NCBI GenBank assembly: GCA_017506865.1
Contig: JAFCMP010000513.1
Location: 558,001-622,000, forward strand
Source: Tribonema minus
Taxonomy: Eukaryota; Sar; Xanthophyceae; Tribonematales; Tribonemataceae
Reading direction: 5' to 3'
DNA: 64,000 nt
The position numbers were made by a program, and so were the translations under genes. Positions 1,435 to 60,963 of this stretch are shown here, piece after piece. The notes below the pieces were generated by a model. That model did no database searches, had not been told where the DNA came from, and was given only the letters and a program-made list of their open reading frames with translations. How positions within the stretch are numbered: the first letter of the stretch is position 1; each line of letters opens with the position of its first letter.

Positions 1435-4400
1435 GCCCGTGCGCGCCCTCCCAAAACCTCTGATGCCTCCAACGAGTCCGCTACTTCAAATGGCCCGCCA
1501 AATGAGCACTGCGACAACAGCAATGGCGCTCAGCGCTGTGGTGGCGCTGCTGCCTCTCGTGCTCGCCGCGGCCTGCGCAGCAGCGCACACGTCACCAGCG
1601 AGCAGCAGCCTCCTCAACGCTCAGCATCGGCAGCAGCGGACGAGGCGCAAGCGACAGCGGCAGCGGCAGCGGCAGCGGCAGCGGCATCGGCATCAGCGGT
1701 GGCGGCAAAGGCGGTAGCGGCAGAGGAAGAAGTAGCTGCAGCTGAAGCGGCTGCCGCTGAGACAGCCGAGAGCAACGAGGATGAGAACGAGATTGCGGCA
1801 GCGCTCACCCCCCCTGAGCCTGAGCCATGTGACAGCAGTTGCGTCAAGGAGGGCCTTGCAGTGGAGACAGAGGCGATTCCGGCAGCAGCGGCAACAGCAG
1901 CAGCTCGGGCGGCAGTGGCGTCATCGGGAGCAGCGCCAGCGGCACCAGCACCGGCTTCTGCGGCGCAGGATGTGGCGGCACTTGGAAATGTTGATGCAAC
2001 AGCACCCGGAGAAATCGAAGTGGCAGCACCCGCAGCGGCAGCAACAAATTATGCGTCGCCCACGTCGGAGGAAGAGACAGCAAGTGCAGCGGCGCCGGCA
2101 GATGAGACATCAGCAGCGGCGGCGGCGGCAGCGGCAGTAGCAGCAGCAGGAATAGCTGCAGCAGAGGGCGAGAGTGTCGCAACGGACCCCAAGGAGACAG
2201 ATGGAGCATCACCTTATAAACCAGTCAAGTTGTCAGCAGGTGACGCAGAGGCGGCTTCTTCGCTGCGGACAGTTGAGGCGTCTGCCGCAGCAACGACCAT
2301 GCCTTCGCGCGCTCCGGCAGCGGCGGCGGCGGTAGTCACAGCAGTATTACCTGAGGAGAGTGCAGCAGCCTCAGCAGCAGCCCACAGTGACGCGTCAGCA
2401 ACACCTGCCGCCCGCAGCAACGATGCAGCCGCGAGCAGCTGCAACGAAGGCAACAGTGCTCAGCTCCAAGCGGCAGCAGTCACAGCGGGGGTGGCAGGCG
2501 CGGCACAGCGATTCACACTTACAGAAGCATCGACTGCCGCGGCGGCGGCGCCTTTTCTTGCGGCACCAGCGGCGGCGCCTGCTTTTGCGGCAGCGGCGGC
2601 GGCGGCGCCAGCGAGCGTGCCGCAGGCGGCAGCAGGCGCAGAAGCGCTGCGGCCAACAACAGCACCGGCTGAGGAGAACAGCATCGCATCAGCGGCAACG
2701 GCGGCGGTCACGGCATCAAGTCCACCTGCTGAACCGGGGCAGCAGCAATCAGCGGTGATATCAGCCACGGCGGAGGAGGCGAGGCCGCCGGCTGCAGCGG
2801 CAGCGGCGGCGGTGGCGACGGCGGCAGCAGCAGCGGACAGCGCGACGGCGGCGGCCACAGAGTTGCTGCGCCGCCGCCGCCGCGCTGAGCTGTCTGTTGC
2901 CCTTCCAGCAAGCGTCCGGCAGGCTGCAGGTACAGTGCGATCTGTGCGTAGAGCGTAGTGTAGCAGTCCATCATTCGTCTTGCTTTATGTCATTGGTCTA
3001 AAGAGTGCTGTCCACTTGTAGCATCTGAAGTGTCCGTTACCATCAGGAAGTGGGCCTTTACGTGCCATGGCTCAGATTTGCCCTGTTTTACAGTTGAAAA
3101 GCACCATCATACTTGAACTACACGACCTCAAGATGGCCTCGAATTGCTTTCCTGTGTGTAGCTACAACCTTCTCATACACCTCCTATCAGGGGTTCTCAC
3201 ATGTCCTCCCCGGCCCACTGCGCATGCAATACGTGCAGAGCCAGCGCACCGCCTGCCGCCAGCAGCACCCGCGCAGCCAGCAGCGGCGGCAGCGGCAGCA
3301 GCGGCAGCAGCGCTCTCTGCACTAGCGACGCCGGACGCAGCGCCGCTCCATGCGGCGCCAGCAGCACCAAAGCAGGTTGCAGCGCCAGCAGCGGCGGCGG
3401 CAGCAGCAAGCATGCTGCAGGCAACAGCAGCACACGCGCTGCAACCAGTGACGGCACCGGCTGTGGAGAACACCATTGCATCAGCGGCAAAGGTGGCAGT
3501 CAGGGCGTCGAGTTCTCCTGCTGAAGCGGGGCAGCAACGATCAGCGGTGATATCGGCCACGGTGGAGGAGGAGAGGCCGCCGGCTGCAGCGGCAGCGGCG
3601 GCGGTGGCGACGGCGGCAGCAGCAGCGGATAGCGCGGCGGCGGCAGCCATGAGCTTGCTACGCCGCCGCCGCGCTGAGCTGTCTGTTGCCCTTCCAGCAA
3701 GCGTCCGTCAAGCTGCAGGTAAGGGGCGGTCTGTGAGTAGAGGGCATTGCGGCATTCCATCATTCGTCTTGCACCATGTCATTGGTCTCAAGAGCGCTGC
3801 CGACTTGTAGCACCTGAAGTGTCCGTCATCATCAGGAAGTGGGCCCCTTTACGTGCATGGCTTCAGTTTGCTCTGTTATAAAAAGTTGAAAAGCAGCATC
3901 ACACTAGAGGTACATGACTTGAAGATGGTCTCACTTTTCTTCCCTGTGTGTATCTACAGCATTTTCATACACCTCTTATCAGGGCTCCCTGACCTGTCCT
4001 CTCCTGCCCACTGCGCATGCGAAACGCGCAGAGCCAGCGCACACCCTGCCGCCAGCAGCACCCACGCAGCCAGGGGCGGCGGCAGCGGCAGCAGCGGCAG
4101 CAGCGCGCTTTGCACCAGCGACGGCGGACGCGGCGCCGATCCATGCCGCGCCAGCAGCACCGAAGGAACTTGCGGCGGCGGCAGCGGCGGCGGCAGCAGG
4201 GCAGCAGGCCACAACAGGAGATACGGCAGCCGCGCCGTCAGCAGCAGCGGCAGCAGCGGCGGCATCGCCAGGTGTACAAGCAGAAGAGGTGGTACAACCT
4301 GACGAGCCGTCTGCAATGGAGACGGTCATGAAGGACGCAGACGCTGCGCCTGTGTCAACGGCGGCAGCGGCGGCGGCGGCGGCGGCACCGGCGACAGCAG

Positions 4401-6205: not shown

Positions 6206-6280
<75 letters not shown>

Positions 6281-6313
6281 TACCTTGAGCAGCAGCAGCA
6301 GTATCAGCAGCAG

Positions 6314-6348
<35 letters not shown>

Positions 6349-16315: not shown

Positions 16316-16474
16316 ACAAAACCAGGCAGGCGGCGAACGCCACCCGTCTTGTACTGTTACGGGGATAGGCAGGATAGGACAATGACCACCGCCCAGGCAC
16401 TTACAAAACCGGCGGCAAACCTAGACACATACAGCAGCGGGGGGGGGAAGCGCGCGCGCGCCGCCGCCGCCGCG

Positions 16475-19400
16475 CTACGCGGCAGCGCCGCCCACCTTCA
16501 CGAGGCCCGTGATGCGCGTGGTGAAGAGCGCGTGCACCTGCTCCCGCACGTCTGCGCTGTCGCACGTGATGAGGCCCACGAGCGCCGCGTACACCCACTG
16601 CCGCCCCGTCGTGAGCTGCGCGTCCGAGAGGCGCTGCATCACGCGCAGCGCCTCGACGACGACGGGCGTCATGGCGTGGAGGGCCTGCGCCATGAGCTGA
16701 GCGTCGCTGCCGGCGGCGGCAGCATCCGCGCCGCGCGCTATCGTGTCCTTCAGCGCGCGCTCGCGCATGCTGTACCCCGTCACGATGACCCTGCACAGGC
16801 GCCCCAGCCGCACCGCCGCCTGGGACCACAGCGGTGCCGCCGCCGCCGCCGTCGCCTGCGGCGGCGGCGAGTTGGTCGTGCCGGTGCCGCTGAGGGCGCC
16901 GAGGCACTGCAGCAGCGTGGCGTACGAGGCAAACTCCTGCCGGAGCATGGTGCAGGCGGCGGCGGGGGCGCCGTCCGCCGTGAGGAAGCCGCGCGCGCCG
17001 AACTCGCGCCGCAGCGCGAAGCTGTTGTTGAAGCGGCGGCACGCGGCGGCGGACGCCTCGAGCGCGTCCACGAGCGTGGCGAGGTTGGCGTCCGACAGCT
17101 CGCCCGCGCGCGCGTGCTGCGTCATGAGCGCCTGTATCAGCGGCAGCAGGCGCAGGCCCACGACGAGCATCGTCATCAGCGCGTCGAGGTTTGGCTCGCA
17201 CGCCATGCGCAGCTCGTCCTCGTCCCGCGCGACTGCCGAGTCGAAGTCGGAATCGGAGTCCTCACCCGCGCCGCCGCCGCCACGCGTGAGCGCACCCCCC
17301 TTGCGACCGTCCGCCGCCAGCGGCGAAATGTTGGGCGACAGCGAGACGGCGATCGGTCGCCGTGAATCACCGCCGGCAGCGGCGGCGGACAAGGGCGGAG
17401 CGGCGCCGACCTCGCCGGCGACAGCGAATGCGTCGGTGTCCGCAGCAGCGACGCCGCCGTGACCATTCTCCAAGACCTCGATGGGGAGATTGTCCATGAG
17501 CATGGCGGAGAGACTCGCGGTGAGGCAGTCCCACGCGGTGAACGCCTCGCCCACGCCGCCGCCCGCCGCGGCCGGCCGCCGTATCAGCAGCGGCGCGTGC
17601 GCGCTGTCGCCGCCGCTGCCGCCGTGGCAGCGCTCTGCGCGCAGCTCCGCCTCTCGCGCCTCGAGCCGCGCGATGAAGTCCACGAGCGCGCCCAGCGCGG
17701 CGCGCGCGAGCGCCTCGTCCGCCTGGCACACGCACCCCTGCACCATGGCGAGCGCCTCCGGCAGCAGCGCGCGCGTGACGCCGCCGTGGCGGAAGAAGAG
17801 GTCCGCGCACGCGCGCAGCACGCGCGGCGCCATGTCGCAGATCCAGCCGCCGTCGCCGAGCTCGGCAGCGTTCTGCGGCAGCAGCGCGCGCGCGCGGCGC
17901 GTCGCGTCCGTCGCCGCGCCCTCCATCATCGGCCCCAGCACGCCCTTGAAGAGGAGCCCCCACGTCTGCGTCGTGAAGAGGCCGCCGTACGCTGTGAGGA
18001 TGGAGACCAGCGTGTCGAGGCAGCGGTGCCGCAGCGGCGCGCACGCGCTGCCCACGTTCTCGCTGAGCCCAAACAGCAGCGGCCACCACAGCTGCAGGCT
18101 CACTCCGCCGCCGCCGCCGCCGCCGTCGCCGCCTCCAGTGCCGTTGAACCCCGCCTGCGCGCGCAGCGGCGACAGCGGCCGCACCGGCGACACCGCCGCC
18201 GCCGCCGCCTGTGCTACGGGCGGCATGCTCCGCTCGGACAGGTGCGAGTGCAGCGGCGGAGCAACGATGACCACCCCCCCCGGGCCCCCCTCCCCCGCCC
18301 CCTCCTGGGGGGCCAGGTGCCCCGCAAGGGTCCCCAATAGGTCAACAGCGCTCAGCGCGAGATCTTCGCGCGGCCCCTCGACAAACGCCAGCAGGCACTT
18401 TGTGAGCTCCAGGAAGTCATATGTGAGGGCGCCGAAGTGCTGCGTGGCGAGCTCGTCGACCGTCGCCCACGCTAGGCGCGCGATGTTGGCGTCGGGGTCG
18501 CGCGCCGCCGCCGCCAGCACGGCGAAAATCGACTTCCACGCGGAGCGAATCGACGCGAGGCGCGAGCGGATGAGGTACTCTACGCAGCGCAGGACGAACT
18601 CGCGAATCTCGAGGCGGCGCGAGAGGGCGATGACGGTCTCGAAGGGGCGCATGAAGAGACGCTGAAAGTTGAAGTCGCGCAGCTCCTCCTTGGCCATGAA
18701 CTTGTGCGCCAGCTGGCGCAGCGAGTCGATGGCGTACATGGCCACCTGCAGGGAGACACGCCGCCAGACGTATGGGTCAGTCATGTACTCACGTAACCCA
18801 ATAATACATTTTTTATCCTCAGAGAAATGATAGTAACAAATGCTGCAGGGAGTCGATGGCGCACATGGCGACCTGTGGGGGACACGCCGCCAGACATACA
18901 TATGAATAAGTGATGTGCTCATGACGTGACGTCATACGTACTGGTCTTAGTAAATAATAAACCTCCAAGGTGTGGTAGGAACAAGTGATGCAGGGAGTCA
19001 ATGGCATACATGGCAAGCTACAAGACATACACCGCACGTAATTACTGTGTGAGATACTTCCAAAACGTCACATCACGAGCAGTACTCCAAAGTACACATG
19101 TATGCTTCCGCGAAGCTTTTCAAGCATACACGAAATAGAAGTATGAATCGATGCTTCACAAAAGCAGCGTTGTTAATCCCGGCACTTTGAGGCACTCGCG
19201 CCCGTGCTCCCGCGGGGGTAGCCAGGATCTGGCTCGCTCCCGGCACTCCCGGCTCAGGGATCTTGAAGTTGGTTATGAAGCAATTGAAGTTCTGCGCTGG
19301 CGTGGCTTTCGCTGCTGCGCTGCTTTGCTATTTTTTACGTTTTGAAAAACAGTTGATCTTACTTCACCGTTGAACTTCACAGGCGCCACGCGTGTGTTTT

Positions 19401-22400
19401 GAGACAGCCTGAGTGTTGTCAGACAGTGTGAGGCGGTGAGGCGGTGTGGCAGCATGCTTATCGATGAGGAGAGAGTGCCATGTGTGCTACAAACAAACCT
19501 GAACTTCAACTAGGTTTGTCCAACTTCAACTATGGTTTGTCCAACTTCAACTAGGGTTAGCCGGGAGTGCCGGGAGCACCCTTCAGATCCTGGTCGCTCC
19601 CTTACTCCCGGTAACTCCCTTCCCCCCCCCCGGGGGCACGGGATTAACAACGCTGCACAAAAGCGCCCAACGCCACGCTTGGCTTGCAGGTACATATGAG
19701 TAAGCTCAAGTTGCGTGAGGACAACAGGTGCCTCGGGGTTTGAGCGGTTGCAAGGCGGTGCACAAGATTGGTGATCGGGCCCAAGGCATTGCGTGCACAC
19801 ACAACACACCACGTGGACATCACGTTGCTACTTGCGAGCCTTGTCGTATGTACACTCTCCAATTACCTTACGCTCTGCCTATGTTGCAACTTGCCCAGGG
19901 AATGCTTGTTTTCGAGCCTGTGCAGGGCCGCACACACGCGCAGACTTTCAACATATACTTCAACACACGGAAACGAATCAAAAGATGGCAGAGCTCTAGG
20001 TGACAATGTGAAGTGAGCCCTGGCAAATATACTTCAACACATGTTTGAAGTTCACGGTGCGTACCTGCGGGTTGTCGTGCGCGCCAATGGCAGCGAAGTG
20101 CGAACTCAGTACCCCCCAGATGTCAGCCCAGACGATGCGGCTGCGCGAGTCCATGTTGAAGTCTGCAACTTCAACAAGCCGCTGCAGCGAGAAGATGCGC
20201 GGCGCGGACATGTCGCCGAGCACGTCCTTCGCGCGGAACGTCGCTTGCCGCCGGTGGTCGATCTCTTGTCTGCTTACCGCGCACAGCTGCGGAGCACAGG
20301 CAAGGAAATTCGTCATAGAGCGTTGTGTGAGCAGTTGCTGTGATTATAGCGGCTGAGGTTTAAGGTTAGGGTCGGTCTCTTGTCTGCTCACCGCGCACAG
20401 CTGTGGAGCACGAGCGCGAAATTTTGCCATTGTGCTTCAGGAACAGGCAGTGATGCAGGTTGCAACTCGGCTCGTACAAATGCTGTTAATGCAGCGGCTC
20501 AGAGTTGGGTTTAGAGTTGAACTCTTGCCTGCTCACTGTGCGCGGCTGTGGAAGGGGCACAGGCGTGGCATATGCCATGAGGGGTTGCGTCAAAAAGATC
20601 ATACAGTGGCATATACTGACGCAGCGGCCTGGAGGGAGGGTGAGGGACGGCATCGCTGCCCTCTACTGCGCTTGTTACGCGCAGGCCCGCATGCAGCAAG
20701 CAACCGTGCGGATAACTGCTGGTTGTGATGCACAATCATACCTACATGCCCCCATTCTTACAGCTGAGCACTGGCATCTACCACTGCATTCATCAGTTGT
20801 ACTGATTGCTGCCTGCCCATATCCCTCCATTGTAGTGTGTGGTGCTACCTAGAGGGGTACACTGGTTGCAGTCAAAGCTCGCACCGGGAGCTGCTGCTGC
20901 TGCTGCTGCTGCTGCTGTAACAGACAGGCGGTGGCTCAGCAGCTGTGCTGCTCGCTGATGCGCATGTGTAGCCATTCATGCGTTTGTTGCATAAGCTGTG
21001 GTCAGCAACACATCGACATTGTACCTGTGCAAGCAACATATGGTGCACTGCGCAAGGCAGTCACTGCTGGACGATGCTGTACTTTTGCCGGCAGTGCTCA
21101 GTGCATAGCCTCATCTAAGCCCCACCCCCCACCCCCATCAAAGCCCTACTAAAAAGCAGTATCGTACGCCACATACCCGAAATGAGACAGCATCCCCATG
21201 CAGTCATCACAACACACACACAAAACACACTACGCCACCGTCACGCGCTCACCTGCTGCACCATGTGCCGGATCCCCCCCGTGCTCAGCGCCACGCTGCT
21301 GCTGAACACCCGATCGATCGCGGCCTGGTCCACCGCCGCCGTCACCAACTCCGCATTCGCCCGCTCCACCCCCCTCGCCACCTCCCCCGCATTAACCCCC
21401 CTCCCTATCAGCCCCGCCCCCACCGTCGCCATCCACCCCGGCGCGCCGCTGCTGCTGTGCTTCCGCGCCATCGCATGGTGTTGCGTGACAGCGCTCTGCG
21501 CGGCGGCGCCGCTAGGCGACGGCTCCGCGGTGCTCGCCGATCCGTCGTCGTTCTCTGCGAAGAAGACGTCGTCCGTGTGCAGGTTGCCCGCGAAAAGCAG
21601 CAGGCGCGCGAGCTGCGAGATGTAGCGCAGCACGGGGCCCCAGGAGTCGCCGAGATAGTCGCCGTCCTCCGTCGCGATGGCGAGCAGCGCGCGGATGCAC
21701 TCAACGTTCTTGGGCCCCATTTCTGCGACCGTGTCGAGGAGGGTGAATTTCGCGAGGCCGTTGATGAAGGTCTCGCGCGCCACCTGAGGGCGGGTGAGTT
21801 TTGTGCGTGGCAGGGGTATGTAAGTAGTGTAAGTAATGCGCGCCCTATATCTGTGTAATGTGCCGTTCGTGATGATGATCATTATAGATACGAGCAGGAT
21901 GAATTTGGCGAGGCCGTTGAATTAGGTCTTGCGCGCCACCTGGTAGCGGAGGGTGTCTCATGTGCTCACAAGATGTGTATATGAGCAGCTTGGAGGCCCC
22001 CCGCAAACTACTGTATTGAACTCCGGACTACGACAGGATGATGAACTTGGCAATGTCATTGACGAATGTCTCGGCACACCTGGGCGGGGGGGGGGGGGGG
22101 GGGGGGCAATTCATGTACTCATGTAGGTGTGAATAATGCGGAGGGTGGTAGTGAGCTGCTGATGGGGTGCACCGTGTGGTGCAACGTGTTGACGACAGTC
22201 AAATTGACCACGTCATTGATGAATGTCTCGCACACAAGGTCTGACACACGACCTGAGTGGGACGGGAGCTAGTAACTGTAACCGGGTAACTGTAACGGTC
22301 AACAGTATTGTTAGGGAGGCATGTGGCACGGTGTCATGTGTTCGTGACCACACTGTGATCATGATGCCATGGGACAAGGCTGCCACCGTCATGTATGTAT

Positions 22401-25400
22401 GTCATGGGCAGATGCAGTGTGCGCTGAAACGTCATTAGACGCGGCTAATGTCAAGTTGAAGACAAGAAGTGACGCTCAGCATGCGGGCCATGATGCATGC
22501 GTTTATGTCTCGTGGCATCATTTGATCAAGGCTGCGCAGATGTCTCGGTGCTACGCTGCATGTCAAGGGCCGTGACTAGATGGTGCCATATTTCAAGAGC
22601 CGTCACTTGATGGTGCCGGGCAAAAGCCAAGCAACCCTAGACCCAACCCGGATTGGGCCCTGAACCCGAAGCATAACCCTATCCTCATCCTATTCTAACC
22701 TCACTTGTACTTTGTAAATATTTATTTAAATAAACAGTTGGGACAAATTCTCTAGCCCTGAGTAGCCCGAGCCTTAACCTTGGCCCCTTGCCCCCAGCGC
22801 GCTCCGCGCACAGCGCCGCGAGCCGTATTCTGTGGCGATCTTATTCCGACCTTACTTGTATTTAAAGTATTTATGCTGTAAATTAAAAAGTTGAGAAAAA
22901 CCCTCTAACCCTAGCCCTAGCCCTAACCTTGGCCTGCTCGCTCCCCGCGCGCTCCGCACACAGCGCCGCGAGCCGTATCCCGTACCGATCCTAAACCTCT
23001 ATTGTCCTACTGCATATTTATTGCGACAAACTTTCTAGCCCAACCTTGGCCTCCTCGCTCCCCGTGCGCTCCGCGCACAGCGCCGCGAGCCGTATCACGT
23101 AGCAACGTTCCAACCTTACTTGTACTTTTATTATACTTCTTTAGGAGTATTCATGTATGTGTATGTAAACAGTTGGGACAAACCCCCTCGCCCTAACCCT
23201 AACCTTGGCTTCCTCGCTCCCCGCGCGCTCCGCGCACAGCGCCGCAAGCCGTGTCCCATACCAATCCTAGACCTTGCTTGTACTACTGCATACGAAGTAC
23301 TTCTATCTATTAATGAATGAACAGTTGGGACAACCCTTTAGCCTGACCTTGGCCTCCTCGCTCCCCGCGCGCTCCGCGCACAGCGCCGCGAGTCGTATCC
23401 CGTAGCAATTCTATTCCAACCTTAATTTTACTTGGATTATTGTGTAAAAAATCAAACAGTTGAGACAAAAGCTCTAACCCTAACCCTAGCCCTAACCTTG
23501 GCCTCCTCGCTGCCCGCGCGCTCCGTGCACAGCGCTGCGAGCCGTATCCCATAGCGGCACCCCAGCAGGCACAGGCGCACCATGCTGCGCTCCGCGGCGT
23601 GCTGCTCCTCAATGGCAGCGCTTGCCCCCCCGCCCCCCCCCCCCCCCTCCTCCTCCCACGCCGCCCTGTTCCCGCACTCCTCCAGGATCTGGCTGAACGC
23701 CCCCAGCATGGGCCACCACGCTACTTCAAACATGGCCCTCACGTACTGCCCCTCGTCGGGGGGGGGGACCAGCTGCGAGGGGGGCTGAGGGGGACGGCGC
23801 CGGACGCGGCGGCGTTGGCGGTGGCGGCGGCGGCGGAGGCGGCCGCGGAGGCGCGCGCGTCCGAGTTGAAGAGCGTCGTGCGCTTGCGCTGGCGCACTAG
23901 GGCCTCGCTGGCGCGCACCATGTCGGCGCGCTCCTTTTCGAAGGCCTCGCGCTTGGCGCGGTCCGCCGCGGAGATGCCTGGGGGGGGGGGGGAGGGGGGC
24001 GTCGCATATGGTGGTCGTGGTGTTGAAGTTGATGTTGGTGGGGGTGGGGGGTTGGGGCAGGAGCGGTGTGCGCTGATGCAGACGCGTCGCGTCGGTGAAG
24101 TGGGCTTGGGGGGGGAGGGGGGGCTCCACTTTCTGATGTACTTGTTCAAAAGGACTCTCTTGAAGTTCATCGAAGGTCACCTGTGAGAGTCGCGTATAGC
24201 GGCGAGAACGCGCTTTTCACCAACGCGCTCCCCACCGACAGGAGGGGCTTATTCGTGGTGTAGTCCTCTAGCAGTGACACCATCATGCGGTTCAAAAAAT
24301 TGAATACATGTGAGGTTTGTGTTGCAAGAGGTCGTTCCATCAAATAGTCAGCTGTCAGCGTCGCGTACAGCGGCGAGAACGCGCTCTCCATCAAAAGGAG
24401 GGGCGATGGCGCTGTTCTCTAGCAGCGACACCACCATGTGGCGTTCACAAAGTTGCCTGCTTGCGAGGCACTTGCTTGTTGAAGCAGGTGAGCCATCACG
24501 TAGTCACCTGTGAGCGTTGCATACACCGGCAAGGATGCGTTCCACCAAAAGGAGGGGCCTATTGATGGTGCAGTTCTCCAGCAGTGACACTACCATGTGG
24601 TGTTCAACAAGTTGCCTGGTCAGGTACTTCTGGAAGTAGGTGATTCCATCAAGTACTATTGCCAACAACCCAACCTGCACATAGGGTGGTGCAAACAGTT
24701 ACCTGTAAACGTTGCGTACAGCGGCAAGAACGCGCTCTCCACCGAAGAAGAGGCCTATTCCTGGTGTAGTTCTCTAGCGATGGCGCCATCACGTTGCGCT
24801 CAAGAGGATAACCTACTTGTGAGGTACTTGTTCAAGAAAGAACTTATCGAAGTTCTTATTCAGCAATCACCTGTGACCGTCGCGTACAGCGGCGAGAACT
24901 CGCTCTCCACCAAAAGGAGGGGCCCTTTGATGGTGTCGTTCTCTATCGGTGACACTACCATGTGGCGTTCGACAAGGCGCCTACTTGTGGAGTACTTGTT
25001 GAAGTAGGTGAATCCATCAAAGTCACCTGTGAGCGTCGCGTACAGCGGCGAGAACGCGCTCTCCACCGCCCCCGCCGCCACCTTCATCTTTGCCCGCCAG
25101 ACGTCATCCTCCTTCAAGCTGATGGGGCTCTGCTTGATGCGGTCAAAGATCTCCCCCAGGAACCCCTCATCGAGATTCCCCCCAGCGGCAATCCCCCGGT
25201 TGTTGCCAATAAACCCCGCTTTGGTCATGCGCCGATCCTCGCGAATCGCGGGATTGTGCAGGTCCGTGTTGAGCATGATGACGCTGAAGGCCAGAATAAA
25301 CGCCGTGTCAGCGGAGGGGAAGACCGAGGGGTTCTGCAGGCAGTAGCGCTCCGCGAATTTCTCCATCATGCGGTCGATTTTTTGGGCCTCGCCGGGCAGG

Positions 25401-37504: not shown

Positions 37505-37543
<39 letters not shown>

Positions 37544-44452: not shown

Positions 44453-47400
44453 TCACGCATCCTTGGCGCCGCCGCTCGCAAACCACTGCTTAGCACGCGC
44501 GCGCGACTCCCTAATCTTCCTGTCCTTGGCCTCCTGCGGCGTCTCCTCCGGCTCCGGCGCCGCCGCCGCTGCCGCGGCGCCGCCGCCGCCGCCGCTCTTG
44601 CGCTTCTTGCGCCGTGCTGCCGCGGCGTCCGCCTCCGCCTTGACGCGCACTTCCTCCGCCTTGCGCGCGCTGTCAATCTCCTCGGCGTTGCGCGGCTGTC
44701 CGAAAGGCCGCGCCCCCCCCCGCTCCCCCTCTTTCTTAACTTCAGCGTCGCCGTCGGCGGCGGCGATAGCGTCGCCTTCGTCGCGCAGCGCCGCCTGCAG
44801 GCGCGCCACCAGCTGAGCCTTGCTGCCGTCCGTAGCGAGGCCTCGCGCCGCCAGCAGCGGTCTCAGCTCCGCCACCTTGAGCTTCCCGACGCTGTCAACT
44901 GTCACTTCAACTTCATCTTCCTCCTCTTCTTCGCTCGCCGCCGCCGCCGCAGCAGCCGCAGCCGCCGCAGCTGCTGTAGCAGTGCTCGATCTGCGAGACT
45001 TGCGGACTGGTGCTGCGAGCTCTGCGTCTGGCGATGGTTCGCGGCGCTTGCGCTTGCTGGCAGCGCGCTCCGTCTGCGCGGGCGGAGTCTGTGGTGGGAG
45101 GGGTCGAGGGGTGTGTGAGGGCGGGTCAGTGCGCAGCGTAGAAGCGGCAGCAGGGCAACATCTGATGTAGACGACAGAGTGAAGCACTGACAAGTGCCTG
45201 TGCATGCAGAGTAGCACATGTACAACGAAGCTGTGAGCTACTTTGACGTGCTGCATATATTAAGGTCTTGACACACATGCACCGCCAGGGCCTGCCACTG
45301 ATCATGGCCATGCGCTGCGTGAAGAACTACAAAGTAAACCTGTGTTGAAGCTGCAGTTCCGCCGCAAGGCACGCACTTGATTCTTGGTTAAAGCTGCCAC
45401 AACTTCGATGGGCACACTAGCTACTGGTGCGGTGGTCTGCAGAACTACAAGTTAAAGTAATCAGCACATACTTGAAGCTGAATGTCCCTCCGCAAACCAC
45501 GCACCTGATCCTTGGCTACATCTGCCACAACATCCATGGGCACGCTGGCTGCTGCTGCCGCCTCCGCAGCAGCAGCTGCCTCTGCAGCCCTGGCTGCCGT
45601 CTCTGCGGCGGCGGCTCTCTCCTTCTGCACCTCAGCCTGCGCTGCGTCTGCCGCTGCCTGCGCAGCCGCTGCCTTAGCCTCCTGCTCTTTTCGCGCCGCT
45701 TCTGCCACTGCCGCCGCGGCGGCTTGCCTGGGTCAAAAGTGCACAATTGAAGTACAGGTCGAAGTTCAAAATGAAGTGAACATGGACGTGCGGCGTCCCT
45801 CCGACCGTTGTTGCGTTGCACATTTTGCTTGGCTGGTGTCATGTACATCTTGAAGCAGCACATAAACGCATCACGTTGTAGACATGTCATCATCATGTGT
45901 TTTCGGTGTGCAACGCGATACGATCGTGCCAGATCCCTCCATCGACAGTCGCCACATCAACCGTTTTGCTGAGCCCATCAGCCTACAAGAGAGCGGCCTA
46001 GTGGTGTCGTGTACCTAGCTCAGCCAGGCATTGCGTTGCAGACACGTCGTCATCATTTTTCTATGCAACCTGGAGCACGCAACACTGTGAGCACTGCAAA
46101 CACCAGCCAGGTTCCCTTTCAGGGAACCGAACCTCAAATGTGAAGTGCAGTTGAAGTTCAAGTTTCTGTTTTTACTTACTGTTCTGCAGTGGTGGAAGCA
46201 GCAGCCGCGCGCCTCTCGGCAGCCTCTCTCGCAGACACCGCCCGTGCAGCAGCATCTTGTGCCTGTAGCGAGCAAGAAGGAGCTGATTATGATGGGCATT
46301 GCAGCCTTGGCTTTCACCAATTTGTGAGTACCCGTCGCAGTTTTGTAGGGTTAGGGTTGAAGGTTGGGTACTTTGATCCGCGGACGCTGTTGGAACAAAG
46401 CATTTGCAAGCAAGTGGGACTGTATGACCAGCATTTATAACGCACGTGCAGATAGCAGTCGAAGCAGCGCTACTCATGCGCCAAATGCAAGCACTCAGCG
46501 TACTGGAAAAAAAAAAGGCACTGCCACATCATAGGCGTATCATGCCTGACCTATGAGCAGCCACACCCATAACGCAGTGGCACACATCGTCGGCCCTGGC
46601 ATCATGAACCGCAGATGCAGTTTATGTACTCAGGGTGAGGTAACCCTTACCCTAACCCTAACCCCAACCCACGGTCCCTTTGAGATGTTTCGACCAGTGC
46701 TACGTGCATGGACAGATGACTGGCACTGCTGGTTCTGTTACCTGTCTGCTGGTTGCCTCTGCCTGCTCTGCCCGCTGCCGCTCCCGCCTGCTGGTGGCCT
46801 CAGCCTGCTCAGCCCGTGCAATGGCACCATGCGCCCTGCATGCGCATGAAATCACATTCATGAATTGATTCCATTGGAGCACATGCTTGAATTACTGCTG
46901 GTGGGCCTCTGCCTGCTCAACCCGTGCAATGGCACCATGCGCCCTGCATACGCATGAAATCACATTCATGAATTGATTGCATTGAGCACATGCTTGAATT
47001 GCTGCTGGTGGCCTCAGCCTGCCCAGCCCGAGCAATGGCACCATGCGCCCTTGCATGCGCATGAAATCACATTCATGAATTGGTTCCGTTGATCACATGC
47101 TTGAATTACTGCTGGGGCCTCAGCCTGCTCAGCCCGTGCAATGGCGCCGTGTGCCCTGCATGCGCATGAAATCACATTCATGAATTGGTTCCATTGATAA
47201 CATGCTTGAATCACTCAAGAGCAGGTTCGTTAGCGAATCACATGAATAAATCGCATTCGTGAATCACTACATAGTGGGCGACTTACAAAATAGCTTCCCC
47301 ATTGGCGGGAACATGGAGTGCACCATCACATGCACGGTGTTGTGTACAAGACGGGCAAATACTCAGTGCTGAAGACGAAGCACTCAGATTATGGGCAGGC

Positions 47401-50400
47401 TTAGACATATGAAAACTAGCATTCGGTTTGCATTTGTGAACTCTTGCAGTTTGGTGACCCCAAGCGGTCTAAGGCTATGCATGTGTTCACGCATAGCCTC
47501 AAATCTGTGGTGTTGTGAAGTACACATACCACGAATGCAAGCAGCAACGAGAGATGCTTCATGCATGCCAGTGACTATCAACCTCACGTTATTCCATGTG
47601 CCAGCGACATTTTCTTTGGTAACCGCTGGGGTTAGGGTTGGTGCTGTATCATGTGGCAGGCACTAATCAGTGTCGTTATGTTAACTTCAGTGGCAGAATT
47701 CATGCTCACCTCTGCCTGTCAGCCTCTGCATTGGCAGTCAACTGAGCCATGTGGTTGCTGGACTGCAGCAGCTCCCACTCCCTCTCCGCACACTGTCAGG
47801 CGACATGGCATCTATTAGAACACTGTGACATACTACAATTCCTACTGTGACCTACACTCAAACAACATCTGTCACATGGTTTGCAATACTCTGAAGCATT
47901 GAAGTCTAGTGGCACAGATGCCACATGTGTCTGATACTTCGAAGTAGTGAGCAAAGCGAGAGTGTCACGCACAGCTCCGCCACCGTTGTGTGATGATCAT
48001 ACACGAAATTCTCTGGACCTGACGAATTCATCAAATGCTACAAGTGTGCAGTTGTAGAATAAGTATCAGCAACGTGCAACCACCTGACCTACAAACACCT
48101 GAATCCACACCCACACCCACAGACCTTAAGGGCAGCGCACAAAAGCGGCCATCTCATGGTGATGCTCAGTTGCCCGCAAATTCAAGAAAATTAATGTTAT
48201 TGCTGCACGTCAAACGCAATAAAGTGATTTGACAAAGGATTGTTGGTTTCTGAGGCGTTGCGTCACACCTGTGTTGCAGAGCACTGCTTCTAGGCTCACC
48301 TGCTGCAGCTGCTCCTCTGCAGACTGCGCATCTGCAGGCCCGATGGTCCATCCGTCGAGCACTGCTTTGCGTGCCTCAATGGCTGCAGCAACGACAGGCC
48401 CCCACCCTGCCTCCAGTTGTTCCGCTGACATTGGCAGCCTGAAGGCAGGAGCGAATGCAATTGTGAAAGTTGAAGTCAACGCCTCATCATTGCAGAGTGC
48501 CATGTATGCGTTATATATACGATGGTCCATCCGTGGAGCACTGCTTTGCGCGCCTCGATGGCTGCGGCAACGACAGGCCCCCACTTTGCCTCCAGCTGCT
48601 CCGCTGACATAGGCAGCCTGGACGCAAGAGCAAATGCAATAGTCAAAGTTCAGGTCAAAGCCTCATCATTATTGTACAGTTGAAGTTGAAGTCGAGGCCT
48701 CATCATTGCAGCTTGGGGATGGGATAAGGTACATCCCCAACATTGCAGAGTGCCATATGCTTAGCAGTGTCTGCAAAAAGCAAATCATAACGTGAAATTG
48801 GCACTTGGTGAAAGACAGCAGCAGCCAAAGGGCAGAAGTGAGGCCAAAAGAGTGCGGCAGTTGTCTGTTTCGTGCATGTTCATCCTGGAAGTTGGTATTG
48901 CTTGAGAGTCTCTGGGTGTACACAATCGACAAACATGTACAGCACAGCGCGCTTACAGTACCAATGCACTTTGTTGTATTCATCTTTACGCTTCACCGCT
49001 GCGCAACCACAACAGCAAAACTAGCGCCATGTTGAAATTTTGGTGAATCAACTTGACACCAACACAGGGCTTCAATAACAGCACTCAATTTCTTGCCATC
49101 ACACAAATGCAATCAGCGTATTTTGCATAGATACACATACCTCTGGCGCAGAGCCTCCATCGCCGGCGCGGTCCTCAGAACATTCTCCGCGGCCCTGGTG
49201 GCCTTGGCTATCGCTGTTGAGCGCTGCTGCGCATACTCCGATTGGAGCGTCACCTTTGCCACCCTCACATGATCCGACAGGCGGCTCTCCAGATCCTGCC
49301 ACATTGGTGAGCAATGCAGCGAGACAATAAGTGCACAGCCAAGAACTGAAGGTTGGCTAGCCTAACCCTAAGGTAGGTCTGGCCCTTAACCCAATTCAGC
49401 AAAGGTGAGCACAGGAATTCGGTGGCCCTGATGTTAACCCCAACCTGATGGTAAATCATGTCCAGCGCCGCAACATCAGAGTTGAGGTTAAGTTAGTTTA
49501 ATGTTGCGACACGGGTGCTGCAATCGCTGTCAGCAAGCATGTCAGCGTCGTTTCCTGCTTGCAGGCTGCCAGCGGCTGCGTATCTGAGCACTGCTTTGCT
49601 GTGACCACTGAGCTGCTGAAAAGCAACGCTTGACCATGCTGAGTCTGTTCTGTGCTGCACCAGGACTGTACTGTGCTGTGTACTGTACTGACCTGAAGTT
49701 GCGGGTTATCGTCGACGGCCCTCTTGAGCACCTCTGTGGCAGAGCTCACCGCAGCGTTCAACGCCGCCTCCGCCGCTGACAATGCGTAGGAAGGCCGCGA
49801 CCTGAAAAGGCACAACCAGCACACGCCAGAATGACGACAACAGTTACATTGCATCAGGTGCGCTGGAACAATAAAGTCAAAAAAATGACACCAGACTGCA
49901 CACACACAATGCACACCATAACGGCGCTACAATGAAGCAGACACGCTGACCTTCACACTTGCATGGTTGAACACAGTGTGAATGGCCACAAAAGGTGCTT
50001 GCCCCCCCCCCCCTCTGTCTGGGCCCCCTTGCTGGTTCATGGTTGTGTCTCCTTTGTGTGCCATGATCGCAGAATATGCCAACCCCTGGCGTCTACAGAC
50101 CCGCCACTGCCAAGATCACCACTGCCAACGTTCTGATCTCGTAGAAATGGTGATGCCTGTACATGCATCAATTCTTTCATGAATGAATTTCACTGCGGAA
50201 GCTCTGAGCTCGTGGAAGTGTGGTGCCTGTACATGCATCAATTCATTCATGAATGAATTGCACCTGAGCGATGCCAGGGACGCAGCCAGCGACGCGTCGA
50301 ACGTCTCCTTGGCACTTTTGAGGTCAATCAGTTCATTCATGAATGAATCGTACCTGAGCGATGCCAGGGAGGCAGACAGTGACGCGTCAAACGTCTCCCT

Positions 50401-52370
50401 GGCGCTTTTGAGCGCGCCCTCCACCGCTGCGCGCGCCCGTTGCATGGCGTCGCTTTCCTCAGCTGCCTGTTTGATGGACAAAAAACAAGGGCATCCCAAA
50501 AGGTGTTCATGACATTTGACGTAGACCATGCATTCATGACGATGGCGATCGTTTGCAGCGCTGAGCTCCTAACCCTAATCCTAACCCTAACCCTAACCCT
50601 GACAGAACATATGTATGCATGCAGTACCCCCAAACATCATGATTGCGAAGCATCTGTGCAACTCTGCCTGTAGAGTGTAAAGGCAGGCATGTATCATCCC
50701 AACACAATGCCAACGCCAACAGCCGGTGGCAGAAACAAGCAATACACCTGTTCACAGAGGTTACATCATCAGGTCACAAAAAGCTTCCACTCAATGCTGA
50801 CTGCCTGAAGCCATAGCATGCGCTAACATTTCCGTCAGCGCGTCAGCAATATGCTTAGCATGCACTTCACCAGGTTCCCGGACTACCATGTAGGTCACAG
50901 GGTACGTTAACCCTAGTATCAACCCTAACGCCCTAAACCAAGCAGATAGAGGCTGCAAAGGAACGCGAGCTGCTGAAACATGTGTGTTGTAAAGGTCATC
51001 AACCATCAACAAACATCCACCGCTCCCCCCTTTTTCTGTGGCCGTATTATGCTTCAATTGAGCTAGTGTTGCGCCAAACTTGCGGAAGAAAACCCTGACA
51101 AAAGTGTTGCAGCATTGCACAGGCTGCACCTTCGCTCACTCGTTGCGCGCATCGATCACTGCGACAGTGACCAAAGCTCACTACCTCTATTGCGGCATCG
51201 CTGCTGCCAGGCATCATTGTCATGCCCCCCCCCCCCCCCCCCCTCAAAACGACTGCACCCCACACCGCACGCATTCAAAAAACAAGCACCAGCATGCACT
51301 CTCAGCACAACACGAGAAACACCGAGCATGTGCTTCAACCAGTACTTCAAGTGCGCGCACCTTGGCCACCGCCAACTCGCAGTGGTTCCGGACGGTGGTC
51401 TCAGCTGCCTGAGCATCACCATCAGTTGACTGGGGCACAGCGCTCAGCAATTTCAAACTGTTGGCCAGGGGTCCCTGCGCGCGCGCCCTGAGATCCGTCG
51501 CCGAAAGCGGCAGATGGGCCCTGATGGGGCCCCAGAAGGCGCTGTCGAAATGCGCCAGCGCTGCCTGCACGGCTTCCCTGTGGTGCATTGCATGGCGATG
51601 CAAAGGCTGAGCCACGGGGTGCACTGTGCAGTGTGGAGGTTTTTTTTCCACGTGTAAGGCGATGGTGTGCGCATGTGAGTGCATCGCATGGCGACAGTAA
51701 ACACTGTGAGCCACAAGAACACTGTGCAGTTGACTGGCTGATGTACACATCTGTTATCTTTGCATATGTGTAAACATACGCGGTGACGGTTGTGTACGTT
51801 CAAGTTGCTGATGTGCGCGCATGCAAAGCGCACAAGTTGCTAGGTGGAGGGTCAAGCTTAGCCTAACCCTAGCCCTAAGAGTGTAAAACTCAGCAAGGTG
51901 CTGTTATAGGCGCTGCCGCTTAGAGTCAGCATGGCTTCCCTGCGGCACATCATTGTGCGGCAATATCGTGCATCCGTCCGACGCACTTATGCTAAAAAGC
52001 TTGCACACAGATGTCTTCTGACTACTGTGGATATGATGGCACTGTTTGACTCGTGGCCAATGACTGCAGCAGCGGCGACCATGGTCGTTGGTGAAAGGCA
52101 CTTGCGGCTGACCACTCCTTGTCACCTAGAGATCTACAATCGTTTGATTCGTTTTCAATAGACGTAATGCAACCATGCAGCACGGCAAGCTCTTGAGGAT
52201 TGGGAGGCACTTTTTTGCCACAGTGGCGCCGGATGGCAGGGAGCTAAGCCGAAGCCCTCAGCACCTGCGAGACCGCAAGATGCTGCAAGTGATCCGCAAT
52301 GAGCAGGCGCGAATTGCGCAGCGCGCTGCGTAGCACAGGCGCCAGAGAGCGGAGACGCGCAAGCAGCAGC

Positions 52371-52406
<36 letters not shown>

Positions 52407-55400
52407 GGTTTCTCTCTCTGCTCGATAGCGCGCCACGGATCAAACAGTGCCACCATACAGTATCCACAGTAGTAAACTACCAGCCTACCTGCGCCTGTTA
52501 CCGAGTGCCTGAGTGTTGCTGAGCAGCACCTCCGCGCGTCCCCCTCTCAGCACCCCCTCCAGCTCCCCCTGCCTAGTGGCAGCCTCGTCGTCATCGGCGA
52601 TGCCGGTGCGCTGCAGCGCGTCGGAGAACTGCTGCAGCAGCAGCGCGCACGCCTCATCCATCTGCGGACCGTCACCGGCAGCAGATTGAGTTGATGTTGC
52701 ACAATTAAGATTATTTGGGTTGCTGTTGAGGGTTTGAGCACGCCCAGTGCTCCTTGATGTGCATGGTGAACGCAACAGCAATGCGACTGAACATGAAATG
52801 CGGTCCGATGCGACATTTCTTTTGAAACCCTGATTGCGACCGCGCCCTGATCCTGAAGTCCAGGATTGTAAAAGTTCGATGAAAAAAATGTGTGGCATCA
52901 AATATGAAGACATCATACCCCATGCATCACATAAGTACAAGCAAGCTTAGATGCCATGCATCTGGGCTGTTTCGCGCTCTGAGCGAGAATTTTAATGAAA
53001 AGTACAAGCCCCTGCACTGAGGGCGACCTCTCTATGCACACCAGTTCAAGCGCTTCGTGAGTACTATTACACCGGACCATCCATACGCGCAGAAGTCCAA
53101 TGAGCTGAGTGCTGATCACCGCATACACTCAAGCACCAAAGAGCTTGCCGAGTTGTCACCAGGCTGTTTGAAAACGCCCATGCCGGGATGCAATGACAAG
53201 CAGGTTTCAGCTTCTGCAATTTGCCACGCCGCGCAGCTCAGACATGACATTCAACACTTCAATGTTGACCAGCCGCCCAGGAGGCCAACAAAAGCTCGAG
53301 CATGTGACAAACCGTAACTTCACCACAACTTTTTATTCCTGCAAAGTATGGCAAAGTCTTTGGTGCCAAGCCTCCATCAATTATTTAATCAATCATCCAA
53401 TCAGTGCATTCATGACGACAAGAACACATGGCAGGTGATGCTGACAATGAATTTTCTACACGTAGGCCATAACGAGCACCCCCCCCCCCTTCCAATTGGT
53501 CTGACATTTTTCACCAGCAGTCAGGGCCTGTCAATTTACTGATCTCCTTTGTGTATGTTAGAATTAGGGAAGTCAGTGCACATATATATCTGTGCGCTTA
53601 GGTCAACGTTGGACAGCGGTGTATTCCTAGCGTATTGCGTGGCGCGCGCAAAGCATGCTAGGGCTAGGGTCAGGGCTAGTAGAAGTATACACTCTACAAT
53701 CTTTTGATTCGTTTTCATTCATACATACATACCTCTGCGCTCAGGTCAGCGTTGGACAGCGGCGTATCCTGCGCGTACTGCATTGCGCGCGCAAAAAGCT
53801 CCTGCGCGCGCGCATTGAATGTCCGACGGATCGCCTCCACTTCCTGCCCCAGCATCTGCCTGCAGATTGAAATTACACACGCAATGCTCAGGTTTTACGT
53901 AGGTAGAGTCTAACTTCGCATACCTATCGCAATGCTCAAAAAGATGGTGCATGACGGCGCCTCTTCTTCTGACTGGTTGTTGCTGTGGTGGGTTAAGCAG
54001 AGGGGTAACCTCCCCCCCCCCCCCCTTCTGTATGTTGTGCAAACCCTAAGTGCCCGCGGCAGCAGCAAGCCAGCTGCAGTATCACAATGTGCTACAGAAG
54101 CTGATGCTTTCACCTCGTCAACTCGAGTATCCCCTGGAGCGCCTGACACAAGACATCAAAGTCACTCCGCTTCCAGCCAACAGTGCCAATGAGAACATGT
54201 CAGAGGAACAACACCCCCGAAATAGGCCCCACACCTGCTTTGCAATATTCTGCGTCTCTTCGCACAAGCATGTTCTCTGAGGCATGATGACCTCGTCGCT
54301 GTTGAGCACTGACACTTCAAGTTGAAGTATAGCAGTGTACATGCAGAGACATACTTCTATAATGTAATTTGTAGTTGGTGTTACCTGTATGCGCTCTGCG
54401 GCATGATGACCTTGCCGCTGTTTAGCGTCTGCAGACAAGCAGACAAGCACATGATCATGTGAGCTGGTTTACATGCACCAGTGCTCAGTAACAGCAATAT
54501 TGCTCCGAATGTTGCGTTGTTGAGCATTGGCAGAAGGCATACAGTCACATGAGCACGTGAGCTAGAATGTAACAGTGCTCAGCAGCAGCAAGGCTTAAAG
54601 CCTTCTAGCTGAAGCAGTGCGCCCTAAGGGTGCTCAACAGCTGGAATATTCGATGTGATAGCTCGAGTTGTATTGTCTTGCCATCATAAATTGACATTGC
54701 ACAAAGTATTCACCTCACCGCAGCTGAATCTGCCCAAGCTTCACAATGCACCAACACTTGAAGTACAACAACGCGTACATGCGCCAACAACCATCATTTC
54801 CTTAGGATATGTAAGAGCAGCCTTTAAAAACCTGCCTTTGCGAACACGGGGACCATGCGAGCGAGTGCCGCTCCAGTGACAACGTGCCCGCCAAACACAG
54901 TGGGCTCAGCCAGTTGCTTGGCCAGTGATGCACGCAGTGCCTCCAAACCCTCCCTGCAGAGTGGCCAGGTGGCGCAGTGGCAGAGCGACACTTGTCAGCG
55001 CCTCAGGCGACGCCATGGCATAGAGGCAGAGAATGAAGTGTAGTCCTCGAGTGTACAGCGAATATATGACTGTGTCCAGGTGGCGCAAAGGCAGAGCGAC
55101 GCTTTTTAGCGCCTCAGGTGACGCCATGGCAAAAGGCAAATAACATCGTGTCATTCATCTTCAAGTGCACAGTAAAAGTATGACTGGCCCATCCCGCAGG
55201 TGGCCAAGTGGCGTAAGGGCACAGCGACACTTGTCAGCGCCTCAGGATGCCATGCCAGAGGGCATAGTGTAACCCTCAAGTGCACAGTGGAGGAACAAGA
55301 GGTCCCTGCCGCAGTGGCCAGGTGGCGCAAGGGCCGAGCGACACTTGTCAGCGCTGTAGGCAGGAAAGTGGCCATGTGAAAACAAATGGCCCTGGGTCAC

Positions 55401-58400
55401 AGGCGACAACGTGTACCTTCAGGTGGATGGCAACAACAACAAAAAACAGCACTTGAAAGTAGCTGTTGGTGATGTCGAAAAACAAAAATTAAGAACGAAA
55501 ATGGGGTTGGAAATCCAGCAACAATGATGAGAGCATAGAGTGCAGGCAAATACGTATTGGATGCATCCGCTACCATATCTCCCACACTGTCAGCTCCAAC
55601 AGAAGCAGGATCAACATTATGAACCCTTGTTGTGATGCTACAACCTGACCCTAAGGGGTAGGGCTGTGTGCCATTCCAACGGACATGAAACGTTCCCCCC
55701 AAGCAGACCCGCTGTGACATTATTGCTGCACACTACAACTTCAAGCACGCAGCCACTTTGCATACACATAAAGCTATGCACACTGCGGTGCTGGCATTGA
55801 AGCTGCAGGCAATACTGAATAACAACAACAGTACCTGAACTTGGGGCTCAGGTCCTCCTGGCTGAGCTCCTTGCTGAGATCTGCTGTCTGCTGCACAGGG
55901 GGTGGCAGAAGCCACACCGAGATCGACTCAAACGCCTCACTGCAACAACGCAAGACAAAAAGCTGCAAATTAGCTGATCAGCCGTAGTTGTTCATAGCGT
56001 TATGAGACATGTCACTGACAATGCATCCATGAGCTACAGTAGTCAGTGCGGGAGCTGCTGCTGAGCACATAGGCTGCGAGTGTACGGTGCGCGTTGACTC
56101 CATGCACTCTACCCTGCATGAGTGGGACCAAGCTCTACAGTAGTTGCTTCCCACCAACCCAGCTTGCCAACACAAAGACATGAATCATGTGGGGTTAGGG
56201 TTTGCCCCTTGCCCTATTTCCACTGCTCGAGCCCTCCACTTCAAGTTCCCCACAACACTTCAACTACACCGCAGTACACAAAATCCACCATCTGGGCTTT
56301 TTCGCGCCCTGAACAGGAATCGATAAAGAGTACACAACACAATGCAGAAAGGGCGTGCGGTACTCACTTGAGCGTGCGCCTGATCTCATTTTTAACGAGA
56401 GCCTCAGTGCCTGTGACTCTCCTCTCCAGCCCTAGCAGGTCCTGCTTCACCTCCTCGGGCGTGCCTGTGTAGTTCCTGCAGCACCGCGATGAGCACTGCT
56501 GTCAGCACGATTTGCCTGATGGTGCTGTGGCTGATACGTGTTGCAAATTATGATGGGGGGGACATTGGCATCATGCGTATGCTGCTGTGTTGGTGTGGGA
56601 GTAACGTGTTTGGGTCTGCCTGGTGGTGCTGTGGCTGATACTTCGAAGTATATATATTGCAGATTATCATGGGGACAACGACATCATGTGTATGCTGCAG
56701 AGGTGGTGTGGGAGCAACGTATGTGAAATGGAAATGATTCACTCAGATGACGCATCATGGGGCCACTGGTATCATGCATGTTGCAAAGCTGGTGCAGGAG
56801 CAACGTATTTAGAACAGAAAGATTTGATTTTGATTGACCCTGACGAATCGCTGGTTCATGAAGACCATCATGAGCAGCATGACTGCCATGCATTGTCACT
56901 GAAACAACCTCTGTGGTCAGCAATAATCAGAAGCTGTTCATGAAGTGGTAACAGAGGGCACACTTGCCCAACAGCATCCGCAGTGCTCAGATTCACTTGG
57001 CTCACTGGAGTCCTATAGTTGAAGTTTTGTCTGCAGTTGCAGTAGTGTAGAGCTAGATTTAGCGTCTCCTTTGAGGTTTTACTGATAACGCATATGGGTG
57101 TTACTTCCAGAGCCCGTAAGCTGGTTGGTCAAGTGTGCAAAACAGAGTGTGCGCTGCGTGACCAAGAAGATTCTACACATCGCTGCGCAAAAAGAGGCGT
57201 GAAGCACTCCCTCCCTGTGCAGTAAACGACTCTAAGACCTACACTGCCGAAGAAGTAACAATAAGACGAGAAATATTGATGAGGGCGAAGTATGCATCAC
57301 AGACAACAATGTACACTTACAGAAGTACATACAGAGGAGAGGCCACAGCGCGACAGCCAAAATCTGGCGTCTTCATAAATAAAGCTGTTTTTAGCAACTT
57401 GTACCAGGCATGGAATACAACATCGGTGGCGTGTCTTACCACCGTTTTGACACTGGGTGCAGTACCATGGCTTGTTGAAGTTTGTGCGACACGAACAGAG
57501 TGACTCTCTCTCACCAGTCGCGGAAGACAATGTGAAGGTAGCCGAAGCAGTGCTCATCCTGTTGATCTCGCCCCCCTTGCCCTCTGCGCTGCCAATTATT
57601 GAGGACGCCGTCATATGACAGCAACTGCAACACCATGACTGCATTGTGCTATGCCCGACATGAACAGTGTGACACTCACCAGTCGCGGAAGACGATGTGA
57701 AGGTGCCCGAAGCAGTGCTCATCCTCCTGGTCTGCGCCCCCCTTGCCCTCAGCGCTGCTGCCATTTATTGAGAATGTCTTGTATGACACTGAGTGCAATA
57801 TCAAAGCGTTCTTGCGCTGCGCCCGTCATGAAAAAAGTGACTCTCACCAGTCGCGGAAGACAATGTCAATGTGCCAAAGCAGTGCTCATCCTCTTAATCT
57901 ACGCCTCCTCGCCGGCTGCTGCCAATCATTGAAAATGTCATGTCTGACATCGAGTGCAATATCAAAGATTCAGTGTGCTGTGCCCAACATGCACAGTGTG
58001 ACGCTCACCAGTCGCGGAAGACAATGTGAAGGTGGCCAAAGCAGTGCTCATCCTCCTGGTTTGCGCCCCCCTTGCCGTCCGCGCTGCTCCCCACGTTGAG
58101 CGCTGCGTGCCTCATCACCGCCAACTGGTTCAGCATCCTGTCCACCTGAGCTTCCAGCAGACAGAGACATGATAGAACACCGAAACGCAAGTAGTTGAAA
58201 TATGAAACACATTGAGCGCTGCGTGCCACGTCACCGCCAGCACCCTGTCCACCTGCACATGCCAGCGAAAGGACATGACGAAAAAAAAGACGTAGTCAAA
58301 GAAAAAGAACATGGTCAATGATCATGTGCTTGTTAATTTTGCCGTACGTGGATCTAACATTCACCCGGGAGACTGTTAGGACATAGCCTGGGTGGCTGCG

Positions 58401-60963: not shown

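Follow-up and report, generated by a model that had tools for sequence, protein, structure and literature searches.

Exon edges are copied in tandem into the adjoining introns of Tribonema minus genes

In several genes of Tribonema minus, the end of an exon recurs in the adjoining intron together with its splice site, in tandem units that straddle the exon-intron junction. Edge copying at the tested loci is real and well over chance. At 18 of the 55 edges tested, the neighboring intron held a copy of the terminal 40 exon nt, while the introns of other genes reached the same score in 3 of 1240 comparisons (maximum score, 18), and 22 of 24 intron arrays straddled an exon edge, compared to 5.8 expected under uniform placement (P = 6.6e-13; one intron was entered twice in the count of 24). 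The copies look to be decaying close to neutrally from a constrained template, the exon edge itself.

Genes and exon models

The window, the whole 64,000-nt stretch of DNA analyzed here (G000:C510:558001-622000), belongs to an assembly of 158,181,000 bases in 554 contigs and holds ARF-GEF, kinase, and GBP genes, all on its minus strand. The best matches of the ARF-GEF and GBP proteins are from stramenopiles (named hits include Chrysoparadoxa australica, Ochromonadaceae sp. CCMP2298, Phytophthora palmivora, Pythium insidiosum, and Aphanomyces), and two corals rank lower among those matches. The ARF-GEF exons were located with tblastn, using the homologs P0097, P0061, and P0001, and with GT-AG sites; for the GBP exons, the homologs were P0121, P0122, P0124, and P0127. 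Exons of this kind also served to train a small Markov-plus-splice-site predictor, which found most of them again and proposed further ones. Exon edges were picked through homology or prediction, and repeats played no part in the choice. One weak spot is the second GBP exon, whose donor was assigned manually at 59820; at the GBP exon ends at about 54836 and 59820 (minus strand), homology fits GC over GT donors. Within the ARF-GEF exon 23977-23497 (minus strand), the predictor makes a split at 23773-23795, leaving a gap of 23 bp and a change of frame that could reflect a very small intron or an error in the sequence.

Outside the window, the evidence comes from three paralogs of the ARF-GEF gene, each on a contig of its own (four contigs in all), namely, the loci L010 (C123), L011 (C323), and L012 (C75), which were chosen through Sec7 homology with repeats ignored.

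Copies are anchored at exon edges

An edge was scored as positive when its terminal 40 exon nt aligned to the adjoining intron with a local-alignment score of at least 17. Both sides of the intron were affected, with 9 of 29 donors and 9 of 26 acceptors positive. Positive edges were found in the ARF-GEF gene (8/18), in the GBP gene (4/17, one of the four scoring 18.5, marginally above the null maximum), and in L010 (3/5), L011 (2/5), and L012 (1/6); none of the four edges tested in the kinase gene was positive. Self-BLAST of the GBP introns added three more acceptors, at which the exon part is shorter or weaker, and two further array edges, acceptor 48438 and donor 45505. The first-pass annotation had assigned edge copies to four genes of the window. 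That assignment holds for the ARF-GEF and GBP genes but not for the four kinase edges, and the Ala-rich gene belongs to another class: its repeat of ~799 bp covers predicted exons and the intervening intron and has no truncated edge.

The copied part fades about 100 nt into the exon, since segments at -100 were copied in 1 of 52 cases and those at -120 in 0 of 47. Inner exon segments, taken 150 to 190 nt inside the exon, had no copy in the adjoining intron in any of 30 cases. Tandem exon duplication repeats exon sequence beside the exon, and the arrays resemble it in this respect, but each of their copies is cut off some 100 nt from the edge and has a single splice site. Whole-exon duplication was rejected on the inner segments, and the earlier description of the copies as truncated, pointing outward from the exon, and distinct from ordinary exon duplication is borne out. 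Introns shuffled in blocks of three yielded zero duplicate windows. At the stop-codon edge of the ARF-GEF gene, a single case, no copy was found (score, 12).

To place the arrays, each intron was compared with itself by BLAST together with as much as 150 nt of exon on its flanks, and arrays with a period of at least 60 bp were counted. By hand count, 20 of 30 distinct introns held an array. The edge anchoring that had been claimed from the sequence is thus upheld both by the straddling arrays and by the edge test. Of the two arrays that did not straddle an edge, one lies in the intron entered twice, where the array reaches the other edge, and one runs to the end of L010. Contact was with a single edge in 21 of the 22 edge arrays and with both edges in 1. 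Six further predicted GBP introns were inspected; three held no array, and among the three with arrays, two arrays straddled an edge and one (46788-47215) was interior. The 2.6-kb predicted intron around this interior array may hide an exon.

Geometry of the units

Across 23 edge arrays, the unit had a median length of 148 bp (interquartile range, 120 to 171; range, 94 to 205) and comprised a median of 54 exon nt (6 to 83) and 99 intron nt; roughly 50 to 200 bp had first been proposed for the unit. These values were read by hand from self-BLAST, with the length of 3 of the 23 units taken instead from the observed copy spacing, and they are rough, in that the edges set for GBP exons g12 and g14 are not at GT/AG sites. 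The unit center lay 23 ± 20 nt into the intron, and the exon share was nonuniform (Kolmogorov-Smirnov P = 0.0001; P = 0.0036 conditional on detectability). One additional array took in ~98 exon nt. The unit length resembles that of a nucleosome core, and some link between the two may be conjectured.

As expected of a straddling unit, intron-flank homology was recognizable in 33 of 49 scored copies. The other 16 had no recognizable intron flank, and their exon part averaged 84% identity.

Arrays in the window and at the paralog loci

The arrays are listed in Table 1. The largest in the window have five copies each, at donors 25027 and 23497.

Table 1. Genes, exons, and repeat arrays in the window (positions are those of the window)
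Feature	Coordinates	Strand	Observation
ARF-GEF (BIG-type) gene	16475..31057	-	tblastn with P0097, P0061, P0001; Pfam Sec7/HDS/BIG2_C; splice sites; first exon from predictor
ARF-GEF exons 1-5	31057-30539, 29996-29851, 29494-28630, 28010-27708, 27142-26498	-	
ARF-GEF exons 6-10	25483-25027 (Sec7 exon), 23977-23497, 21783-21253, 20286-20065, 18745-16475	-	
GBP gene	about 60.4-44.5 kb	-	
Sec7 exon donor-side array, edge 25027	24168..25067	-	Last ~40 exon nt plus donor in five copies; GT in 4/5
Sec7 exon acceptor-side array, edge 25483	25412..25955	-	Two copies, both with CAG acceptor
Exon 23977-23497 donor-side array	22687..23556	-	Five copies; GT in 5/5
Exon 21783-21253 acceptor-side array	21735..22231	-	Three copies, at opposite end of intron holding the 23497 array
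Exon 28010-27708 acceptor-side copy	28139..28187	-	Intron flank without recognizable similarity
Exon 29996-29851 acceptor-side copy	30122..30175	-	
Exon 20286-20065 acceptor-side copies	20370..20552	-	Two copies; one reached the threshold when copies were scored
Exon 18745-16475 acceptor-side copies	18845..19034	-	Two copies
GBP exon 58145-58009 copies	57448..58252	-	Donor side, three copies (57514-57848); acceptor side, one copy (58211-58252)
GBP donor-side copy, edge 53733	53580..53795	-	
GBP donor-side copy, short exon ending near 54388	54277..54342	-	
GBP acceptor-side array	54948..55361	-	Only ~6 exon nt
GBP acceptor-side copy, edge 48438	48341..48670	-	88% identity; period 179
GBP donor-side copy, edge 45505	45345..45560	-	Period 128
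GBP 107-bp unit	46788..47215	-	Four copies inside 2.6-kb predicted intron, away from predicted edges
Ala-rich ~799-bp tandem repeat	2461..4425	+	2461-3647 versus 3260-4425, 77% identity; spans predicted exons and the intron between

L011 and the ARF-GEF gene of the window have two intron positions in common, one before VLHEY/VLHAY and one after YATLTG. In the 40-mer test, the acceptor was positive and the donor negative in both genes at the first position, and the donor was positive in both genes at the second. Each array at these positions resembles its own exon, as would be expected if arrays were continually renewed from the exon edge beside them. Self-BLAST of L011 also found a donor-side array with 12 exon nt.

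Copied splice sites

By consensus score, copied sites were much like true ones. The median donor score was 8.1 for copies and 8.3 for true sites, and among copies, 21 of 27 donors and 10 of 15 acceptors exceeded the 10th percentile of true sites, compared to 13% of intronic GT and 18% of intronic AG dinucleotides. Scores at least equal to that of the copy's own true site were found in 20 of 42 copies, 8 of 50 copies having been left out of the scoring because they stopped short of the junction or lay at the intron end. Judged by consensus, the arrays are strong decoy splice sites, and the rows of competing donors and acceptors described in the first-pass annotation would be present in this sense; its statement that the copied sites are usable stands as a statement about consensus scores. 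The splice dinucleotide was kept in 37 of 50 copies (19 edges), close to the neutral expectation that we estimated from divergence.

Copies appear to age close to neutrally

First alignments of five arrays gave copy-to-copy substitutions in the exon and intron halves of 0.20 and 0.41, 0.09 and 0.33, 0.085 and 0.16, 0.36 and 0.46, and 0.26 and 0.49, respectively. Differences between true exon and copy numbered 63, 53, and 149 at the three codon positions, with five ambiguous-frame edges left out. Selection on the exon halves of the copies, our first reading, was dropped after tests of unique changes and codon positions. Six arrays, each with three or more usable copies, were compared. Changes confined to a single copy were found at 69 of 1221 copy-sites in the exon half and at 71 of 1104 in the first 60 intron nt, and columns varying in more than one row made up 34 of 289 in the exon half versus 114 of 279 in the intron half. 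Equal rates of unique change, together with the scarcity of shared variation in the exon half, suggest that the copies are near neutral and that the selected exon edge is their recurrent template.

The codon-position test covered 12 arrays, leaving out 11 ambiguous-frame edges and every edge with fewer than two copies; the frame of L010 donor 1 was set by hand. Copy-unique changes were distributed 40/29/52 over the codon positions (42 synonymous, 77 nonsynonymous, and 2 stop), and those unique to the true exon 4/3/11. The third-position excess in the copies (52/121) is mild and the sole hint of constraint. Strong selection on the copies as the main cause was set aside on these two tests, the equal rates speaking against selection and the third-position excess mildly for it. 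In their exon parts, the copies are about 3 to 29% diverged from the true exon and have their own indels; at donor 23497, three differences from the true exon are common to all five copies. Divergence had been said to rise with distance from the exon, and the tendency is there (41 pairs for, 27 against) but is not significant (P = 0.11).

Other repeats in and around the genes

Several further repeats were observed. A 186-bp unit occurs three times at 13875-14425 (plus strand) in a long open frame and encodes an in-frame Ala/Ser/Pro-rich protein repeat. One repeat, 36593-36759, is located at the last predicted donor of the kinase gene, an edge outside the tested four. Short telomere-like TTAGGG tracts number 23 in the window (491 to 61125), compared to 0 to 5 for nine composition-matched permutations of the unit, a roughly 10-fold excess. 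Examples are found at 23472-23497 and 50567-50603 in the window, at 1929-2084 in L010, and at 130-154 and 2078-2108 in L011; one window tract starts exactly at splice donor 23497, and eight of nine tracts in L010 and L011 are on the sense strand of the gene. Contig ends at L005, L006, and L008 (starts) and L007 (end) consist of long CAG/CTG trinucleotide arrays and are perhaps assembly break points. A piece of 49 to 94 bp (74 to 82% identity, partly inverted) is common to ARF-GEF intron 20064-18746, GBP intron 52529-51565, and L010 after 2607; its presence in three unrelated introns makes a short dispersed repeat possible.

Discussion

We give a probability of about 0.5 to the reading that recurrent, junction-straddling tandem duplication makes introns grow from their ends and that the arrays are not functional decoys. 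A tandem duplication of ~150 bp would span the splice junction, taking in ~54 nt of exon and 99 nt of intron. The outer site, that is, the first donor or the last acceptor, would still be used, leaving the protein unharmed and turning the extra unit into intron. Further tandem exchange would add units, with the protein-selected exon edge as the recurrent template, and the copies would decay near-neutrally into rows of consensus-grade splice sites. We infer that births are biased toward junctions, perhaps through nucleosome-sized units or break repair there, that outer sites are used, and that the process extends genome-wide. In its fullest form, in which a junction-targeted, nucleosome-sized duplication acts genome-wide to build introns from their own exon edges and the spliceosome picks the outer of consensus-equal sites at about a third of edges, the reading is tentative, and we would put it below even odds.

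The three unlinked paralog loci agree with junction-straddling duplication, and the suggestion of intron growth made from the sequence gains support from the edge-straddling arrays and the edge-test counts. Several observations count against it: the flankless copies fit an exon-limited conversion better, the third-position excess hints at some constraint, the distance gradient is not significant, the kinase gene had no positive edge among those tested, and array 46788-47215 and at most two others are off predicted edges. Conversion of that type would mean that the exon parts of old duplications are refreshed, by gene conversion or from a cDNA copy, while the intron parts drift. The absence of deep variation in exon halves and the average 84% exon identity of copies that lack a recognizable flank are consistent with it. 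Most scored copies retain intron-flank homology, however, and the three differences shared by all copies at donor 23497 indicate that the exon in its present state did not refresh them, so we regard homogenization as improbable.

Rather unlikely, in our judgment, is a model of uniform birth with exon-anchored survival, in which ~150-bp duplications arise anywhere in introns, those free of exon decay or are deleted, and those holding an exon end stay recognizable and keep recombining. Exon constraint is indeed seen in the deep variation, and several two-copy edge cases were recognized through the exon part alone. When uniform birth was simulated with a constrained exon, the fraction of arrays at an edge was 0.41 and 0.46 without exchange and 0.10 to 0.75 with exchange (ten settings). 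One of these 12 simulations reached 0.75 (9 of 12 arrays); the other 11 gave 0.10 to 0.50, and at the setting that gave 0.75, 12 of 120 introns held an array, compared to 20 of 30 here. Intron-only windows with copies also concentrate in the introns with edge copies, where 175 of 1024 exon-free 40-mers had a local copy, versus 51 of 816 elsewhere, and unit position is tighter than uniform. We lean toward biased birth over anchored survival.

Rows of splice sites could instead be functional decoys, kept by selection to regulate splicing or make isoforms, as copied sites that score like true ones, the mild third-position excess, and arrays at two intron positions common to the window gene and L011 would allow. 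Exon and intron halves nevertheless gain unique changes at an equal rate, nonsynonymous and stop changes (77 and 2) stand against 42 synonymous ones, and the splice dinucleotide is kept about as often as expected under neutrality. We consider functional decoys very doubtful, and the alternative-splicing role raised in the first-pass annotation gains little from the codon positions, the half rates, or the dinucleotides. Misassembly of long reads would be a trivial source of repeats, but the copies diverge from the true exon and carry their own indels, and copying fades inside the exon, whose edges are invisible to an assembler; an assembly artifact has next to no plausibility and was rejected.

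Among known systems, the closest is a potato RdRp gene in which one tandem duplication across an intron-exon boundary made a new intron (Ma, Lan and Niu 2016, PMC4974935). As in the available part of that account, the unit here holds intron end, splice site, and exon start, with exon, splice site, and intron combined in the 22 straddling arrays and the flank kept in 33 copies. Unlike that single event, the arrays involve many edges, donors as well as acceptors, and up to six copies, and no new intron is evident. The Rogers model, as outlined in PMC4974935, derives intron gain from tandem duplication of an exonic segment holding AGGT. As far as that outline goes, it has in common with the present case a tandem duplication close to sites that resemble splice sites, and AG|GT junctions occur often here; a Rogers unit would, however, hold an upstream exon end and a downstream exon start, whereas 21 of 22 arrays touch one edge. 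With both edges touched by 1 of 22, Rogers-type intron gain was set aside.

Introners are families common to different genes, and their hosts, in the available portions of PMC9860276 and PMC7789003, include algae and stramenopiles. Like the introners described there, the arrays fill introns with repeated sequence and add splice sites; unlike those gene-to-gene families, each is confined to one locus and consists of the exon edge of that gene. Cross-comparison of 31 intron entries detected no element common to the introns of unrelated genes that would make an introner family: of 18 cross hits, 3 came from the duplicate entry, 5 were due to exon copies in two paralogs, and the remainder were pieces of 25 to 94 bp. 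Small tandem duplications arise by fill-in at breaks with 3' overhangs in mouse cells with engineered breaks and are mostly shorter (PMC8355091). Such chemistry could found units of this kind without homology; the available part of that paper reports no junction preference. In the literature searched, mostly open access and in part as excerpts, we found no published description of exon-edge arrays.

The mode by which introns lengthen is, to our knowledge, little known. Here, the edge copies in an intron would be a serial record of how it grew, and within each copy the exon half can be set against the intron half as an internal control. The arrays would also amount to a natural experiment on splice-site choice, in which several consensus-equal sites follow one another, the outermost being presumably the one correct choice, and such arrays may test exon definition without engineering.
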